From positions 1 to 61,532 of the forward strand of contig JAMFSL010000089.1 in NCBI GenBank assembly GCA_026225275.1: a DNA stretch of 61,532 nt. Reading direction: 5' to 3'. The number at the start of each line of letters is the position of its first letter. Position 1 is the stretch's first letter. Shown in pieces: positions 21,734-28,336 of this stretch. Below the pieces are notes generated by a model. The model was not told the DNA's origin and ran no database searches. It was given only the letters and a program-made list of their open reading frames with translations. The stretch is from Puia dinghuensis. Its GTDB lineage: Bacteria > Bacteroidota > Bacteroidia > Chitinophagales > Chitinophagaceae. The translations under genes were made by a program, and so were the position numbers.

Positions 21734-22210
21734 TTAACCAAAACCCAGAGGGCCGGTAAATTTATCGAAAATCTCCAATTCGCTCTCCAACGTCTTAGAC
21801 CGGTGAATGTCCTCCTGTTTGCCGATGTAATCGACCACTTGCTGCACTCCACTGGGGCTTACCGAATACGCCGCATACCCATCCTCCCATTCGAACCCCG
21901 AAGCCAGCAGCTTGTTGTCATTCAGCCAGTCTGCCGATATCATCCGGATACTTTTGATGACCTGCGTTAGGTTTTGAGCAGGCATGAGCTGCAGCAGACA
22001 ATGCACATGGTCTTCCACGCCGCCCGCCGCTACTATTTTTATTCCCCTCTCACCGCTGTCCTTTTGCAGATGGACCAGCAATACCCGCCTCACCGGTTTG
22101 GTCAGCAAAGCCTCCCGACCTTTTACGCTCATAATCACATGTACGAAAAGGTAAACGATGGCAGGCTGTTGATGGGGCGGGCTACCCGGCTCGATGGAAG
22201 GTTCGGTCAT
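21734..22210 (-). CDS. REP-associated (IS200-like) Y1 transposase
   Basis: 158 residues of the Y1_Tnp fold: opening strand IVYLFVHVIMSVKGRE, HUH metal site with D67-H68-V69-H70 followed by CLLQL, and catalytic tyrosine Y128 in YIGKQ with Q132 four residues on, as in IS200/IS605 TnpA. These enzymes cut and join single-stranded DNA at hairpins. The gene is single and flanked by no insertion-sequence ends, and it begins 4 bases behind the DAHP synthase stop. It is followed at once by structured element copy B. This fits a RAYT (REP-associated tyrosine transposase) that acts on dispersed elements rather than a selfish insertion sequence. Confidence 0.8.
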   Translation of the reverse strand: MTEPSIEPGSPPHQQPAIVYLFVHVIMSVKGREALLTKPVRRVLLVHLQKDSGERGIKIVAAGGVEDHVHCLLQLMPAQNLTQVIKSIRMISADWLNDNKLLASGFEWEDGYAAYSVSPSGVQQVVDYIGKQEDIHRSKTLESELEIFDKFTGPLGFG

Positions 22211-22214
22211 GGAC

Positions 22215-23306
22215 CTAAGAGTTCATGATCTTATTCTGGTGGTTGATGGACTCCATATGCACCGCATCATAATATTTGGTGATGAATTCCTTGCTGAGAT
22301 GAAGCTTCTCGCCTTTGGCAAAAGCCTTTTCCAGGATGGCATTCCACCGGTTGGTCTGAAGGATGGTAATGTTATTCTCCTTCTTGTAGGTCCCGATCTG
22401 ATCGGCTACACGCATCCGCTGACCCAGTAACTGTATCAATTCGTCATCGATATGGTTGATCTGCTCACGCAACTTCTCCAGGGCGGTGATGAAATCCTTT
22501 TCCGTCGTCGTCTCGTGACGCCATTTGATGCTGTCAAGCAATTCGGCCAGATTTTCCGGCGTGATCTGCTGCTTGGCATCGCTCCAAGCGTTGTCAGGGT
22601 CGATATGCGTCTCGATGATCAGTCCGTCCATATCCAGGTCAATGGCCTTTTGCGCAACCTCCAACAGAATATCGCGGCGGCCGCTGATATGCGAAGGATC
22701 GTTGATCATCAACATACCCGGCGTGCGACGCTTCATTTCGATAGCAAGATGCCACATAGGCGCATTGCGATATTCCATATTGCCGTACGAGCTGAAGCCA
22801 CGGTGGATCAGCCCAATCTGGTTGATGCCGGCCTTAGCGACGCGTTCCACAGCTCCTGTCCACAATTCGATATCGGGATTGATGGGATTCTTAATGAGCA
22901 CCGGCACATCCACGCCACGAAGGGCATCGGCCACATCCTGTACGCTGAAGGGGTTGACCGTCGTCCGGGCGCCGATCCACAACACATCTATGTCGAAGTG
23001 CAAAGCGTCTTCTACCTGCTTGGCTGTAGCAACCTCTACCGCCACCGGCAGGCCCGTCAGCTTTCTTGCCTGTTGCAGCCAGGGCAACCCCTTGGTTCCT
23101 ACGCCTTCAAAACTACCGGGACGGGTCCGCGGTTTCCAGATACCAGCCCGCACCATGTCGACCTTACCTGTCTTGGCAAGGCGGGTGATCGTCTCCACGG
23201 TCTGTTCCTCGGTCTCTGCACTGCAGGGCCCGGAAATGATCAAAGGGCGTTTGTTCCAGGCTGCCTGGACAATTTCCTTTGCGCTCTTTGTTGCTGTTGC
23301 TTCCAT
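22215..23306 (-). CDS. Bifunctional DAHP synthase / chorismate mutase
   Basis: 363 residues. The N-terminal 260 residues are a type I-beta DAHP synthase (LIISGPCSAETEEQ, VRAGIWKPRTRPGSF, LIKNPINPD, DPSHISGRRD, DGLIIETHIDP), which joins PEP and erythrose 4-phosphate at the entry of the shikimate pathway. The C-terminal 90 residues are an AroQ chorismate mutase (LEKLREQINHIDDELIQLLG, RMRVADQIGTYKK), which makes prephenate. The fusion is usual in Bacteroidota and lets prephenate or chorismate inhibit the first step. pheA in this window lacks a mutase domain, so this protein supplies prephenate for both PheA and TyrA. Confidence 0.93.
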   Translation of the reverse strand: MEATATKSAKEIVQAAWNKRPLIISGPCSAETEEQTVETITRLAKTGKVDMVRAGIWKPRTRPGSFEGVGTKGLPWLQQARKLTGLPVAVEVATAKQVEDALHFDIDVLWIGARTTVNPFSVQDVADALRGVDVPVLIKNPINPDIELWTGAVERVAKAGINQIGLIHRGFSSYGNMEYRNAPMWHLAIEMKRRTPGMLMINDPSHISGRRDILLEVAQKAIDLDMDGLIIETHIDPDNAWSDAKQQITPENLAELLDSIKWRHETTTEKDFITALEKLREQINHIDDELIQLLGQRMRVADQIGTYKKENNITILQTNRWNAILEKAFAKGEKLHLSKEFITKYYDAVHMESINHQNKIMNS

Positions 23307-23324: not shown

Positions 23325-25025
23325 TTATCTACTATTCGCATCATTCATCCTGATCCTCCGGCCCTTGAAATTCTTTCCGTCTATCGCCCGTATCATCTGC
23401 GGCGCCGACTTCTTGTCAACCTCGATCCAACTGTTCATCTCCTTCATATCTATCCGGCCCAGTACTTCCTTCCGCAGATCGCTCATATCGAGGATGAACT
23501 GCAGAAAACTCGCCTTATAAAACCCGTCCTTGGTACCCAGGTTGACGAACAGCCGCGCATAATCTCCATTGGCGTTGAACTCTCTCGGTCCTGCAGTCCT
23601 CGGCTCCCGGCCGGTCCCACCCTCGGTCCTCGACGACGTACGTCCCACTTCCCGTCTATCTCCGCTCCGGCTGTCCCGGCCCGCATATTCCCGCGCCCGT
23701 TCGCGGGCATTCAGGTCCTCGGCATTCTCGTAATATTTCAGGAACCGGTCGAACTCCATCGCGGCCACCCGCTTCAGCACCTCTTCCTTACTGATATCGG
23801 CAAACTTCTCAGCCAGCATAGGCACGTATGTCTCATAGTCCCCGTGACTGATGTCCGCCTGTAATAATTTCTCCATGAAATGAAAGAACTGTTTCCTGCA
23901 GACATCCTTGCCGCTGGGTATCTCCATCTTATGGAAAGACGCCTGCGCGATCCGTTCGATCTGCTTCAGCTTCCCTATTTCCCGGCTATGCACGATGGAT
24001 AGAGATATTCCCGTGCTACCCGCTCTGCCCGTACGGCCGCTCCGATGGGTATATACTTCTATATCATCAGGCAACTCATAATTAATCACGTGCGTGATCT
24101 CTTTCACATCGATCCCTCTCGCAGCTACGTCCGTGGCAATCAGCAGTTGTAATGTCTTGTCCCGAAATTCTCCCATCACCTTATCCCGCTGCTGCTGGGT
24201 CAGATCCCCATGCAGCGCGTCGATATCGTATCCTTCCCTGGTCAGCTTCTCGGCGATATCCTGCGCATCTGCCTTCGTACGGGTGAAAATCAGCCCGTAA
24301 ATGCCGGGATTGAAATCGATCAGCCTTTTTAATGTCTCATAGCGTGAATGTGCCGCTGTGACATAATACTGATGATCGATACTCTTATTGGCCGTATTCA
24401 TTTTGCCGACCGTGATCTCTGTCGGCGACTGCATGTACTTCTTACTCACACGCTTGATCTCAGCAGGCATCGTAGCGCTGAACAACCAGGTTGCTTCCCG
24501 CTGCGGCGTATTTTGTAAAATGAACTCGATGTCGTCCTGGAAACCCATATTCAACATTTCATCCGCCTCATCCAGCACCACATACTTGATCTGCTCGAGA
24601 TTGATCGCCTTGCGCTCGATCAGGTCGATCAACCTGCCGGGCGTCGCGACGACGATCTGTACCCCTCTTTTGATATCCCTGATCTGCATCCCGATGGATG
24701 TGCCCCCATAGACCGCCACCACATGCATCCCCGGAATGAACTTCTTGAATAACTCCACTTCATTCACGATCTGGATGCACAATTCCCTGGTCGGACAGAC
24801 CACCAGGGCCTGCGGATAGCGATCGGCCACCTGCACTAATTGCAGTAGCGGTAATCCAAAAGCTGCCGTTTTTCCCGTTCCTGTTTGCGCCAGTCCTACC
24901 AGATCCTTCGTGCCGCTCAACAAGACAGGGATGGCCTGTTCCTGTATGGGTGTCGGATTCTTGAATCCCAAAGCGTCCGTAGCTTGTACCAGCCTGGCAT
25001 CCAAACCTAGCCCTTCAAATGTCAT
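23325..25025 (-). CDS. DEAD-box RNA helicase with DbpA/CsdA-type RNA-binding domain
   Basis: 566 residues from the ATG at 25025 (MTFEGLGL); a tandem ATG lies 3 bases upstream. Helicase motifs in order: the Q motif FKNPTPIQEQ, AQTGTGKT, PTRELCIQ, TPGR, DEAD, SAT, and ATDVAARGIDV with HRSGRTGRAG. After a charged arginine/glycine/glutamate-rich linker (ARERAREYAGRDSRSGD) the last 75 residues form a DbpA-like RNA-binding domain. Such helicases act in ribosome assembly and mRNA decay, often in the cold. It lies inside the aromatic cluster, 135 bases after tyrA and 18 bases before the DAHP synthase, so it is probably co-transcribed with it. Confidence 0.9.
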   Translation of the reverse strand: MTFEGLGLDARLVQATDALGFKNPTPIQEQAIPVLLSGTKDLVGLAQTGTGKTAAFGLPLLQLVQVADRYPQALVVCPTRELCIQIVNEVELFKKFIPGMHVVAVYGGTSIGMQIRDIKRGVQIVVATPGRLIDLIERKAINLEQIKYVVLDEADEMLNMGFQDDIEFILQNTPQREATWLFSATMPAEIKRVSKKYMQSPTEITVGKMNTANKSIDHQYYVTAAHSRYETLKRLIDFNPGIYGLIFTRTKADAQDIAEKLTREGYDIDALHGDLTQQQRDKVMGEFRDKTLQLLIATDVAARGIDVKEITHVINYELPDDIEVYTHRSGRTGRAGSTGISLSIVHSREIGKLKQIERIAQASFHKMEIPSGKDVCRKQFFHFMEKLLQADISHGDYETYVPMLAEKFADISKEEVLKRVAAMEFDRFLKYYENAEDLNARERAREYAGRDSRSGDRREVGRTSSRTEGGTGREPRTAGPREFNANGDYARLFVNLGTKDGFYKASFLQFILDMSDLRKEVLGRIDMKEMNSWIEVDKKSAPQMIRAIDGKNFKGRRIRMNDANSR

Positions 25026-25160
25026 CATATACTGTATAAAATTTGCGCGAAGGTACGATTTTTGCCCCGTACTGCCGCGGGATTCTGCCACCCCGTCAGT
25101 CTCCCCGGCCGCAGGAACCCGCATCCCCCCGTTGGACGCCATAGCCCCGCCGACGGCGCG

Positions 25161-26008
25161 TTATTTAATGATCCTCCTGATCTTATTCGCGTTGTCCATC
25201 AATTCCTGTAAATAATCATAATTCTCCTTCTCCAGGCAGCTTTTGAACTTCCTCAGCTGGGCGATATGTTCGTTCAGTACGTCCAGCACATGTTCCCTGT
25301 TCTGCTTAAAAATAGGCAGCCACATGGCCGGATTACTCTTCGCCAGCCTCACCGTACTCTCAAACCCCCCCCGGCCAGGTCGAAGATGGCCTCGTCCTCC
25401 TTTTCCTTCTCCAACACGGTATTGGCAAGGGCAAAGGAAGTGATATGCGAAATATGACTGATATATGCAGCGTGCATATCATGGCCGTCGGCATCCATGT
25501 AGACCATTTTCATGCCCATTTGACGGTACAGATCCTCCATCACTTCGACTGCCGCCGGATCACTCTTTTCTTTCTCACAGATCACACAGGTACGTCCCGC
25601 AAAAGCATTGTGCACCGCCGCTTCCGGCCCGCTATACTCTGTCCCCCACATGGGATGGGAAGCGACAAAACGACTGCGCATCGGGTGACTGGCGAGACTT
25701 TCGCACAGCGTTTTTTTGGTTGACCCCGCATCCGCCACGATCTGTTGTCCTGTGACGAGATCCATGATCTGCCGCATCACCGGCACGGTGGCATCCACCG
25801 GGATCGCCACATAGATCAGGTCGCTCTTTTTCACCGCCGCTTCCAATGGCAGCGCCTCATCGATCAATCCCAATTCCAATGCCTTGTCCAGGCTGTCTGC
25901 CGAACGGCCCACGCCGATCACATGGCGTACCAGACCCCTGTCTTTCAATGCCAGGCTAAAGCTGCCGCCGATCAACCCTACCCCTACGATCGTTACTGAG
26001 TCTAACAT
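25161..26008 (-). pseudogene. tyrA: Prephenate dehydrogenase with a frameshift in a run of eight G
   Basis: NAD(P)-dependent conversion of prephenate to 4-hydroxyphenylpyruvate. The ATG at 26008 (MLDSVTIVGVGLIGGSFS, the dinucleotide fold) is chosen over an upstream in-frame start; it overlaps the aminotransferase stop by 7 bases. The first frame continues through PVDATVPVM, ADAGSTKKTLCESL and HPMWGTEYSGP to FDLAGGG, then shifts. The second frame resumes with VRLAKSNPAMWLPIFKQNRE and ends at 25161. The break is at a run of 8 C on the plus strand (25365-25372); nine would give the family sequence GGGFESTVRLA. The span of 848 bases is one short of a multiple of three. Confidence 0.87.
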
Positions 26009-27177
26009 ATGCCCGCCCCCCTTACACGCCCGATGCTTTCCTGTAATTTCTCTTCGGTGCTGCAAAGACTGACCCTCACGTATTTCTCCCCAGCCGGACC
26101 AAATATGCCACCCGGAGTAATGAATACCCCCGCTTCATGCAGCACCCGGTCACTCAGTGCATAGCCATCCTTATAAGTCGCCGGTATCGCCGCCCACACA
26201 AACATACCCACCTGGTCTCTGCTGAAATCACAACCCAACAGCTCCAGGAGATCGAAAACCTTTCCTCTTCTGGCACGGTAGACGGCATTCACGCTGTCGT
26301 ACCAATCCTTGCCCAGGGACAGGGCCTTCGCGGCCGCCAGTTGCACCGGCAGGAACATGCCGCTGTCCATATTGCTCTTGAACCGTAATACTTCGTCGAT
26401 CCTTTGTTTCGCTCCCACCAGCGTACCCACCCGCCAGCCAGCCATATTCTGCGACTTGCTCAGCGAATTCAGCTCGATCACCACCTCCTTTGCCCCCGGC
26501 ACCGAAAGAAGACTCATCGGGTTGTCATTCAGAATAAAACTATACGGATTGTCATGACAGATCAGAATATCGTGTTTCCTGCCGAACGCCACCAGTTTTT
26601 CAAATAGATCCTTATCCGGCAGCTGTCCCGTCGGCATATGCGGATAATTCACCCACATCAGCTTGATGCGGCCGCCAGCCACGCCTGCCTCCACCAGCCG
26701 TTCAAGCTTCTGGAAATCCGGCTTCCATCCCCCTTCTTCCGTCAGGTCATAGTCCACACAAACCCCACCCGCCAGCTTGACCGCACTCCGGTAGGTCGGA
26801 TAGCCCGGATTGGGTACCAGCGCACCATCACCCTCGTTCAGGTAGGTCATACAGATATGCATGATACCTTCCTTCGACCCGATCAGCGGTAGGATCTCCG
26901 TATCCGGATCCAGCCCCACTCCATACCATTGCCGGTACCAGGCGGCAACCGCCTGACGAAGGATGGGCGAACCCTTGTAAGATTGGTACGCATGCACGTT
27001 GGGCTTTGCGCTCTCCTCCTGCAGCACGCGGATCACATCCGGATGTGGCGGCCTGTCAGGACTGCCGATGCCCAGGTTGATAATATTCTTTCCCTGCCGG
27101 TTCAATTCATCGATCTCCCTCAGCTTTTGTGAAAAATAATACTCACCGATACCTTCCAGTCGCTTGGATGTATTCAT
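26002..27177 (-). CDS. PLP-dependent aminotransferase, probably for aromatic keto acids
   Basis: 391 residues of fold type I class I/II. Signatures are INLGIGSPDRPPHPDVI, the cofactor-binding IGSKEGIMH and NPGYPTYRSA, and the lysine in LNSLSKSQNMAGWRVG. It is placed between pheA (4-base ATGA overlap) and tyrA (7-base overlap), in the position where phenylpyruvate and hydroxyphenylpyruvate need amination. This suggests it makes Phe and Tyr. By sequence alone it is also close to LL-diaminopimelate aminotransferases and aspartate aminotransferases, so substrate specificity is inferred from the operon. Confidence 0.85.
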   Translation of the reverse strand: MNTSKRLEGIGEYYFSQKLREIDELNRQGKNIINLGIGSPDRPPHPDVIRVLQEESAKPNVHAYQSYKGSPILRQAVAAWYRQWYGVGLDPDTEILPLIGSKEGIMHICMTYLNEGDGALVPNPGYPTYRSAVKLAGGVCVDYDLTEEGGWKPDFQKLERLVEAGVAGGRIKLMWVNYPHMPTGQLPDKDLFEKLVAFGRKHDILICHDNPYSFILNDNPMSLLSVPGAKEVVIELNSLSKSQNMAGWRVGTLVGAKQRIDEVLRFKSNMDSGMFLPVQLAAAKALSLGKDWYDSVNAVYRARRGKVFDLLELLGCDFSRDQVGMFVWAAIPATYKDGYALSDRVLHEAGVFITPGGIFGPAGEKYVRVSLCSTEEKLQESIGRVRGAGIC

Positions 27178-28034
27178 ACTGTTCTGCCTTTTTTATAAAT
27201 ACCATAGATCTTTAATGCCGCAGTCACCGGTCGCATCGCCTCGATCACCCGCTCGAACTGCCCGAGGTCCTCGAATTCCATGTCTGCATGAAAGGAATAC
27301 TCCCATTCACTGCCGGGTATCGGGAACGACTGGAGCTTACTTAGATTGATCCCCCCGTCCGCAATGGTCGTCAGCACCCTCGCCAGACTTCCCCGCGAAT
27401 GATCGGTATGAAAATTCACCGACGCCTTATCCGGATGGTCTACCGTCACTGCGCTGTCTTGCCGTTGCAGGATCAGAAAGCGCGTGTAATTGTTCTTCAT
27501 CGTCTGAATATCCGGCGCCAGGATCTCCAGCCCGAACAGACTGGCAGCCAGTTTGCTGGCGATAGCCGCCGTATGCCGGCCTCTATGCTGTGCCAGATGC
27601 TTGGCACTAAGCGCCGTGTCTTCCGTCTCTACTAATTTCCAACCGGGACGCCGCTCTAAAAAATCAATACATTGTAATAAAGCCATATGATGGGAATGTA
27701 CCTCCCGGATATCTTCCAGCTTCACCCCCGGATTCACCAACAGATTCTGACTGATCTGGAGATAGATTTCTCCCACCACCCGCAAATCACTTTGTTGCAA
27801 TAGATTGTAGTTCGGCAGGATGCTGCCCGCGATGGAATTTTCGATGGCCATTACCCCGCCTTCACTCTCCTGTTGACTGGATGCAACCCGCACCAGCTCC
27901 CTGAACGTCCCACACGTGATCACCTGCACATCCTTGCCAAAGTATTGCTGCGCCGCCACCTGGTGGAAGCTGCCCTCATAGCCCTGAATGGATACTCTTG
28001 TGCTGCTCTTTACCTCGTCTGATGGTTTGCGCAT
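27174..28034 (-). CDS. pheA: Prephenate dehydratase with ACT domain
   Basis: 286 residues. The catalytic domain, about 14-190, has SIQGYEGSFHQVAAQQYFG, AIENSIAGSILPNYNLL, LLQCIDFL and the TRF motif in NNYTRFLIL. It turns prephenate into phenylpyruvate. The ACT domain at about 205-285 begins SRGSLARVLTTIADGGINLS. Where E. coli PheA has the Phe-binding ESRP motif this protein has LQSFPIPG, so feedback binding may differ. There is no fused chorismate mutase. It is the first structural gene behind the leader peptide and attenuator at 28138-28297, with structured element copy C in between. Confidence 0.93.
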   Translation of the reverse strand: MRKPSDEVKSSTRVSIQGYEGSFHQVAAQQYFGKDVQVITCGTFRELVRVASSQQESEGGVMAIENSIAGSILPNYNLLQQSDLRVVGEIYLQISQNLLVNPGVKLEDIREVHSHHMALLQCIDFLERRPGWKLVETEDTALSAKHLAQHRGRHTAAIASKLAASLFGLEILAPDIQTMKNNYTRFLILQRQDSAVTVDHPDKASVNFHTDHSRGSLARVLTTIADGGINLSKLQSFPIPGSEWEYSFHADMEFEDLGQFERVIEAMRPVTAALKIYGIYKKGRTV

Positions 28035-28051: not shown

Positions 28052-28129
28052 GACCTTCGGCGGAGCTGCTTCGCCACGCTCCTTCTCGGTCGCAACCTTC
28101 GCCGAAGCTCGGTTGCGGCCTATGAGGCC
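28052..28129 (-). repeat. Structured intergenic element, copy C (in the pheA leader)
   Basis: Minus strand, in order: hairpin GGCCT-CAT-AGGCC (28117-28129); hairpin GCAACC...GGTTGC (28092-28116); motif GCGACCGAG (28085-28093); hairpin GGAGC...GCTCC (28062-28082); CGAAGGTC (28052-28059). Here the motif carries GACC and the closing element GGTC, whereas copies A and D have GAAC and GTTC. The pairing is kept by a double change, which argues for a conserved structure. It lies between the attenuator and the pheA start codon. Confidence 0.65.
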
Positions 28130-28137
28130 CCGTGGCC

Positions 28138-28172
28138 CTAAAATGGAAAAGTCCCGGCTTTTGACCGGGACT
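28138..28172 (-). terminator. Attenuator terminator ahead of pheA
   Basis: Minus strand: AGTCCCGG (28172-28165), a 7-base loop TCAAAAG, CCGGGACT (28157-28150), then TTTCCATTTT. This is a perfect 8-bp GC-rich stem followed by a U-rich tract, 116 bases before the pheA start codon. Its 5' arm is also one arm of the competing antiterminator. Confidence 0.85.
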
Positions 28173-28236
28173 CCTTTTGTTATTTTTGTCGTTAATCTTT
28201 TAGTTCATTTAACTTTTAACAAAAGCAATCCCGGTC
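28163..28236 (-). promoter_or_regulatory. Antiterminator pairing of the Phe/Tyr attenuator
   Basis: Arm 1 (28236-28217, inside the end of the leader peptide gene) is GACCGGGA, TTG, CTTTTGTTA. Arm 2 (28182-28163) is TAACAAAAG, GAG, TCCCGGTC. They pair as 9 bp plus 8 bp around a 3x3 internal loop. Arm 2 contains most of the 5' half of the terminator stem, so antiterminator and terminator exclude each other. Ribosome stalling in the Phe/Tyr run would leave arm 1 free and let the genes be transcribed. Confidence 0.85.
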
Positions 28237-28297
28237 TACTTGTAAAGTAGAAATAAAAGTAAAAGAAAAAATAACGGTATGCCTTCGTTGTGTTCAT
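28205..28297 (-). CDS. pheL: Phe/Tyr leader peptide of the aromatic operon
   Basis: 30 codons from the ATG at 28297 to a TGA at 28205. Residues 7-18 are YRYFFFYFYFYF, that is eleven Phe or Tyr in twelve positions, followed by TSRPGLLLLKVK. This is the classical design of an attenuation leader peptide sensing charged tRNA-Phe and tRNA-Tyr, and the downstream operon makes exactly these amino acids (pheA, aminotransferase, tyrA, DAHP synthase/chorismate mutase). The last codons overlap arm 1 of the antiterminator. The symbol pheL is used by analogy with enterobacteria; the sequence is not homologous. Confidence 0.88.
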   Translation of the reverse strand: MNTTKAYRYFFFYFYFYFTSRPGLLLLKVK

Positions 28298-28306
28298 ATC
28301 AGTAGC

Positions 28307-28336
28307 CAAAATTAACCACTTCTGCGGAATATCAAA
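28307..28336 (-). promoter_or_regulatory. Promoter of the leader peptide and aromatic operon
   Basis: Minus strand: TTTG at 28336-28333, 18 bases, TAATTTTG at 28314-28307. The -7 box matches TAnnTTTG perfectly. Transcription would begin only about 5 bases before the leader ATG at 28297, so the leader peptide may be translated from an almost leaderless mRNA. Confidence 0.6.

Follow-up and report, generated by a model that had tools for sequence, protein, structure and literature searches.

The attenuator of the enterobacterial pheA leader consists of a Phe-rich reading frame, mutually exclusive terminator and antiterminator helices and a sequestering arm, and it controls pheA. Such ribosome-mediated attenuation requires a ribosome close behind the RNA polymerase. 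Older computational surveys of attenuation may include Bacteroidetes. In the excerpted text of a 2010 paper, ermC aside, the authors were aware of no leader-peptide system demonstrated outside Proteobacteria and Actinobacteria before their own Firmicutes case (PMC2965389). A 2021 flavobacterial transcriptome study offers, in its available sections, strong clues for leader-peptide attenuation before amino acid operons, as well as a conserved structured 5' element, without Rfam hits, before pheA (and hisG) in Flavobacteriaceae (PMC9723704). In other phyla and for other amino acids, S. meliloti trpL (PMC7298713) and C. glutamicum ilvBNC (PMC11857589) are described, in the accessible parts of these reports, as leader peptides on leaderless mRNAs. 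Among the matches listed in the open-licence literature, a scope outside which most subscription papers lie, none put an attenuator of this type from Bacteroidota to an experimental test.

Here, with a probability of roughly 0.9, we propose that a ribosome-mediated transcription attenuator sensing charged tRNA-Phe and tRNA-Tyr controls the pheA-aminotransferase-tyrA-helicase-DAHP synthase row in a 61,532-nt stretch of Puia dinghuensis DNA (the window), on the basis of sequence comparison and folding models. The reading frame, the arms and the promoter box are seen in the DNA itself, as are the conservation before pheA and the covariation. Like the enterobacterial Phe_leader, the locus has a leader reading frame, exclusive helices, a sequestering arm and pheA downstream; unlike it, it places Tyr beside Phe codons (as do 90 of 90 unique leaders of its relatives) and has another promoter type and another predicted 5' UTR. 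With the pheA element of Flavobacteriaceae, compared by the description in the sections available, it shares the phylum, the gene and the lack of an Rfam hit (PMC9723704). As clues to attenuation by leader peptides and a 5' element before pheA have already been reported there, the design is less new than it may seem; what is described here is the leader, the arms, their covariation and the breadth of the element. The predicted start of translation at, or almost at, the 5' terminus of the RNA recalls trpL and ilvBNC, as excerpted. Viewed as an attenuator for Phe and Tyr that is conserved and follows the classical layout of arms, in a phylum where such systems have hardly been studied, the candidate appears well supported.

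The leader reading frame, MNTTKAYRYFFFYFYFYFTSRPGLLLLKVK, occupies 28205..28297 on the minus strand, to which the other features of the locus also belong. It comprises 30 codons, with the Phe/Tyr run in codons 7-18, and Phe or Tyr stands at 11 of these 12 positions, exactly as the original prediction, made from the letters of the window, had reported. Among 768 ATG-started window frames of 15-60 codons, nested frames each being counted apart, the second-best holds 5 Phe/Tyr in 12, and in 20 shuffled windows the top value per 12 codons always lay at 4-6. For this window, such an aromatic run lies far outside chance. Downstream lie pheA, encoding prephenate dehydratase (27174..28034; PF00800, 2.7e-56; NF008865, 2.9e-54, below its curated cut-off), a class I/II aminotransferase (26002..27177), tyrA, encoding prephenate dehydrogenase (25161..26011; PF02153 and, in two parts, PF20463), a DEAD-box RNA helicase (23325..25142) and a DAHP synthase/chorismate mutase (22215..23306; NF006421, NF009239 and TIGR01805, all below their curated cut-offs). 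The gaps or overlaps between these frames are small, and the genes are probably co-transcribed. As the first gene is a prephenate dehydratase, a switch read through Phe and Tyr codons suits what the row would produce. The tyrA gene is divided into two frames (25349-26011 and 25161-25352) in the stretch 25349-25370, where the frame is interrupted at 8 consecutive G, the remainder of the dimerization domain lying in the other frame; this may equally reflect a sequencing error, slippage or a genuine break.

Arm 2, the 5' strand of the antiterminator, lies within the leader frame (28217..28236); arm 3, the 3' strand of the antiterminator, also contains the 5' strand of the terminator (28163..28182); and arm 4 joins the 3' strand of the terminator (28158-28147) to the U-tract (together 28138..28158). 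The antiterminator pairs GACCGGGA with TCCCGGTC (28236-28229 with 28170-28163) and CTTTTGTTA with TAACAAAAG (28225-28217 with 28182-28174), and the duplex between the 3' half of the leader and the 5' strand of the terminator reaches -31.7 kcal/mol, a value equaled by 0 of 2000 shuffles. The terminator stem is AGTCCCGG/CCGGGACT (28172-28165/28157-28150), followed by an interrupted U-tract, CTTTTCCATTTTA. Both the terminator (28172-28138) and a 9+8-bp antiterminator using its 5' arm had been predicted, and both were recovered, with the qualification that the U-tract is interrupted; a simple consensus scan of the stem called a terminator solely on its opposite strand and none on the leader strand. 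On one point the original prediction was wrong: it had found no third arm that would sequester the 5' strand of the antiterminator and had suggested that the resetting step may differ from that of E. coli. In the minimum-energy fold, 28289-28275 pairs with 28233-28218, and this fold together with pair counts defines arm 1, the partner of arm 2, as leader codons 3-8 (28275..28289). Since a sequestering arm exists, no unusual resetting step is needed. In the window, this helix is equaled in pairing strength by 34 of 2000 shuffles. Adjoining arm 2 is a small hairpin, CTACTT-TAC-AAGTAG (28236..28250), which we propose, tentatively, to be a pause hairpin. The locus presents the characteristic parts of a leader-peptide attenuator: a short leader frame with a codon run for the product amino acids, a predicted intrinsic terminator between the leader and the first structural gene, an antiterminator that uses the 5' strand of that terminator and a 1:2 helix competing with the antiterminator, the last being the weakest helix and not outcompeting 2:3 at equilibrium in the window.

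In the case of the established Rfam model for such leaders, Phe_leader (RF01859), the window scores 27.1 bits, below the gathering score of 55, which places it outside that family. Among 60 Chitinophagaceae genomes none has a match above the cut-off, and 42 of them hold 127 sub-threshold matches, the window site itself being absent from these. As just 5 of the 127, including the best-scoring one at 43.6 bits, lie immediately upstream of pheA (G006, G021, G028, G040 and G055), the affinity to Phe_leader is weak and not family-level. In a control set of 14 genomes the model matched in E. coli and B. subtilis, above the cut-off in one. Two matches of the window to miRNA families were dismissed, being far below their gathering scores.

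To place the element among its relatives, 110 pheA loci were taken as the best 30 of 133 matching genomes (195 searched) and the best 80 of 164; the two sets have genomes in common and, consisting of the best matches of each list, lean to close relatives. With L097 and L105 left out because their upstream sequence is too short, 108 loci with 700 nt upstream remain. An aromatic leader, defined as a frame with at least 7 F/Y/W in 12 codons, is present upstream of pheA in all 108 (107 with ATG; L067 with GTG). The 107 leader-terminator sequences with ATG reduce to 90 unique ones, a set outside which L067 falls; Phe and Tyr both occur in 90/90 and Trp in 12/90. Run triplets of the form T-[TA]-N carry T or C at their third position 868 times and A or G not once; the corresponding ratios in the other two frames are 254:116 and 283:287. 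This bias is partly by construction, as the leaders were picked for aromatics and an open frame excludes TAA and TAG; its informative part is that the Phe codons TTT/TTC occur 509 times in the runs and the Leu codons TTA/TTG 0 times. These observations bear on whether a ribosome reads the switch at all. Exclusive helices, taken alone, would equally fit an attenuator whose reader is a protein or an RNA that binds an amino acid or a tRNA, the reading frame being incidental. Such a reading is very unlikely in view of an aromatic run kept as a reading frame in every one of the 108 loci, of the use of Phe and Tyr codons to the exclusion of TTA/TTG (in leaders chosen for aromatics) and of the finding that none of 20 relatives' loci has an Rfam match at gathering score. 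In two of the loci we made side observations. The frame immediately upstream of the L067 leader resembles, by eye, the C-terminus of the helicase of the window, pointing to a gene order unlike that of the window, and L104 comes from a record labeled Beijerinckiaceae, an odd place for it; the contig is short and has perhaps been misbinned.

Each of the 107 ATG-started loci has a T-tailed hairpin after the leader, the tail being T-rich; applied to shuffled versions of these regions, the same search detected a hairpin in just 2 of 450, neither as high as the lowest real score. By our own criterion, then, the T-rich tail is constant, which speaks against stalling acting through pheA translation (by coupling or reinitiation) or through Rho, and not through intrinsic termination. 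The imperfect U-tract of the window would suit that alternative, as would the many relatives whose hairpin is no more than about 40 nt away from the start of the pheA match; in the window, hairpin and pheA are 112 nt apart, and overall we consider the alternative highly improbable in comparison with attenuation at an intrinsic terminator.

Covariation was assessed in an alignment (A1) of 49 of the 90 unique rows, hand-picked from 71 representatives below 88% identity. In the terminator (3:4), 95.3% of cells are paired against a shuffled mean of 86.7%, and 35 cells are changed on both sides against 6.3; the corresponding values are 87.8% against 81.4% and 38 against 12.9 in the antiterminator (2:3), and 79.0% against 75.7% and 25 against 12.0 in the sequestering helix (1:2). 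None of 500 shuffles reached the paired or both-sided values of any of the three, and the covariation scores likewise exceed all shuffles, a comparison that may be inflated by the relatedness of the rows. When the arms were slid against each other, 3:4 and 2:3 beat every slid version in paired cells, both-sided changes and covariation score. For 1:2, the paired percentage (79.0 against 37.5-55.6) and the covariation score are above every slid version, but its both-sided count of 25 is no higher than after a shift of 1 or 2 columns (25 and 26), and two other counts were reached by 24 and 32 of 500 shuffles. Swapping arms between species weakened pairing in 63.7% of cases for 1:2, 75.4% for 2:3 and 79.3% for 3:4. 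By these comparisons, the terminator and the antiterminator clearly covary; helix 1:2 is present and conserved across the aligned rows, yet is the weakest of the three. Paired changes can also be followed by eye, as in CCCGG/CCGGG versus CCCCCG/CGGGG for arms 2-4 and in GCAT/ATGC versus AGGA/TCCT (L082), AGTAT/ATACT (L107) or GCAAATACA/TGTATTTGC (L086) for arms 1-2. The small hairpin at 28250-28236 has 75.6% of cells paired against 68.3% in shuffles and 37 both-sided changes against 19.7, values reached by 0 of 500; two other counts of it were reached by 27 and 61 of 500. The original prediction had proposed looking upstream of pheA in related Chitinophagaceae for conserved aromatic runs and covarying stems, and the search was positive for both.

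Comparison of the leaders also bears on the possibility that the frame encodes a functional small hydrophobic peptide, the hairpin being the ordinary terminator of a small gene. The residues KAYR...RPGMLLL are indeed recognizably conserved in part of the family. These conserved residues, KAYR and RPGMLLL, flank the run and are encoded within arms 1 and 2, and the conserved ends track the RNA arms; where arm 2 is in another frame (SRVVFAK, SKSRG), the peptide differs and the pairing segment is kept. Moreover, in the 86 of 90 leaders in which the arm-2 core was identified, the position of the stop codon ranges between 2 nt upstream and 37 nt downstream of the point at which that core begins. A functional peptide is scarcely to be expected here.

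In the mechanism that we envisage, transcription would start a few nucleotides before the leader AUG. When Phe and Tyr are plentiful, the ribosome would pass the aromatic codons and cover arm 2, arm 3 would pair with arm 4, and transcription would stop. When Phe or Tyr is short, the ribosome would stall in codons 7-18 with arm 1 covered or left behind; arm 2 would be free to pair with arm 3, no terminator would form, and the genes would be read. Were the leader untranslated, arm 1 could sequester arm 2, and termination would be the default. It is from this arrangement that we infer termination, antitermination and the sensing of both amino acids in the cell. The leader of the window was folded with an assumed ribosome footprint masked, the results being equilibrium sums and not kinetics. 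In this folding through the terminator, the predicted occupancy of antiterminator 2:3 is 0.67-0.94 with the A-site at codons 9-17 and 0.00-0.03 with the A-site at codons 20-28. In the latter case the terminator occupies 0.55 of arm 3, which is approximately the ceiling because only part of arm 3 belongs to the terminator. A stall at codon 18 already favors the terminator, and with the ribosome at the stop codon 2:3 remains at 0.60 until arm 4 is made. The earlier suggestion that stalling on Phe/Tyr codons switches the structures agrees with this model. Without a ribosome and with arm 3 just completed by the RNA polymerase, the equilibrium values are 0.90 for 2:3 versus 0.00 for 1:2; with arm 4 present they are 0.47 for 1:2, 0.24 for 2:3 and 0.41 for 3:4. 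As 2:3 beats 1:2 at equilibrium in the first of these states, default termination would need 1:2 to be folded first.

The sequence before the leader ATG has the layout TTTG-N18-TAATTTTG, in which the last element is a -7 box of the TAnnTTTG type (28307..28314) and the first a -33-like TTTG 18 nt upstream of it (28333..28336); transcription is predicted to begin near 28302, some 5 nt upstream of the ATG. A TAnnTTTG box lies within 60 nt of the leader in 84 of 90 unique relatives versus 123 of 1800 shuffles, and 49 of these 84 also have a TTTG 16-21 nt ahead of the box. In 79 of the 90 the end of the box is 4-10 nt away from the ATG, and as the published position of the Bacteroidetes box is -12 to -5 in the sections available (PMC9723704), a 5' UTR of 0-6 nt is predicted for these 79. 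In comparison, leaderless mRNAs amount to 5.5% in F. psychrophilum (PMC9723704, as excerpted), and 5' UTRs under 10 nt to about 3.7% in B. thetaiotaomicron (PMC7366714, in the accessible text). Beyond the family, 13 of the 32 distant leaders tested have the box within 60 nt, and in 6 of these 13 it is no farther than 10 nt away; a near-leaderless start as a class-wide trait was rejected on this count. Bacteroidota promoters and translation start rules are described, in the same partial source, as unlike those of Proteobacteria (PMC9723704). Because attenuation needs a close ribosome, a conserved attenuator in Bacteroidota would make transcription-translation coupling there directly testable, and in this test we see the main value of the element. 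We supply the alignment and a covariance model (R1) of this element, for which the 20 loci noted above gave no Rfam match at gathering score.

In its own genome, R1 finds one strong site (E 4.6e-22) among 14 matches, namely the window site and 13 others with E 0.029-9.6; of the weaker ones, seven (L112-L118) were considered, and none is an aromatic leader. In the phylum, 296 genomes were searched and 90 gave a match at E <= 0.01, many of them weak. Among the best 29 phylum loci besides its own, L142 and L145 are without an aromatic leader and the other 27 possess one, that of L123 being recognized by eye and beginning with GTG. These 27 leaders precede a pheA relative (tblastn) in 23 cases and a DAHP synthase-like gene (by eye) in 4; 20 are outside the family (f3, f5, f8 and f34), two of which (f34) are outside the class. 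A counter-check sample of 30 genomes without a strong R1 match, 28 with a pheA relative, showed an aromatic leader before pheA in 15 of 18 from the class (5 of 5 from the same order among these) and in 0 of 10 outside the class. In other families the leaders before pheA carry different arm sequences. Of the 35 leaders outside the family, 32 were tested, L125, L164 and L165 being omitted as near-duplicates. A terminator-like hairpin follows in 32/32 by a looser criterion, used without a shuffle control. In 27/32, no more than 3 of 100 shuffles equal the complementarity between leader and arm 3, and 5/32 have no clear antiterminator (L128, L130, L131, L141 and L168). The odds seem to us about even that the class possesses separately built attenuators of this kind, which would read Phe and Tyr in one mixed run, with overlapping helices in the codons flanking the run and, in Chitinophagaceae, translation near the 5' end of the RNA. 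If so, their conservation would imply close coupling of transcription and translation in Bacteroidota.

Some of the loci in other families differ in arrangement. An aromatic leader and hairpin stand, by eye, before a DAHP synthase-like gene in L131, L138, L140 and L141, and the L140 leader holds Trp too. In L167 two aromatic-rich leaders lie upstream of pheA (at about -351 and -189), each with its own terminator-like hairpin; these are possibly tandem attenuators.

The Puia dinghuensis genome also has candidate leaders for other amino acids. A His-rich leader, MRFNGQHHHHHFILPESNDLEVGR, precedes hisG (L148; above the family cut-off), a WWW leader, MNTKINQQWWWHTKSEWGM, precedes a trpE-like gene (L149; 376 bits, below the TIGR00564 cut-off), and an Ile/Val-rich leader ending in VVIIIPAIKGGGW (L117) precedes ilvE (by eye) upstream of ilvD. 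In these loci (contigs C165 and C234), a hairpin with a T-run follows each leader, by eye; leuA of the same genome has no convincing leader. Given the His-, Trp- and Ile/Val-rich leaders, attenuation appears, at the level of sequence, to be a general strategy in this genome.

Repeat-like sequences are found around the row of genes. Between the terminator and pheA, a palindromic stretch of ~50 bp (28052-28102, minus strand) looks REP-like and has 14 more matches in the same genome. At the other end, between the DAHP synthase and aroB, there is an IS200-like/REP-associated tyrosine transposase (21734-22210, minus strand; PF01797), which is perhaps related to REP-like repeats.
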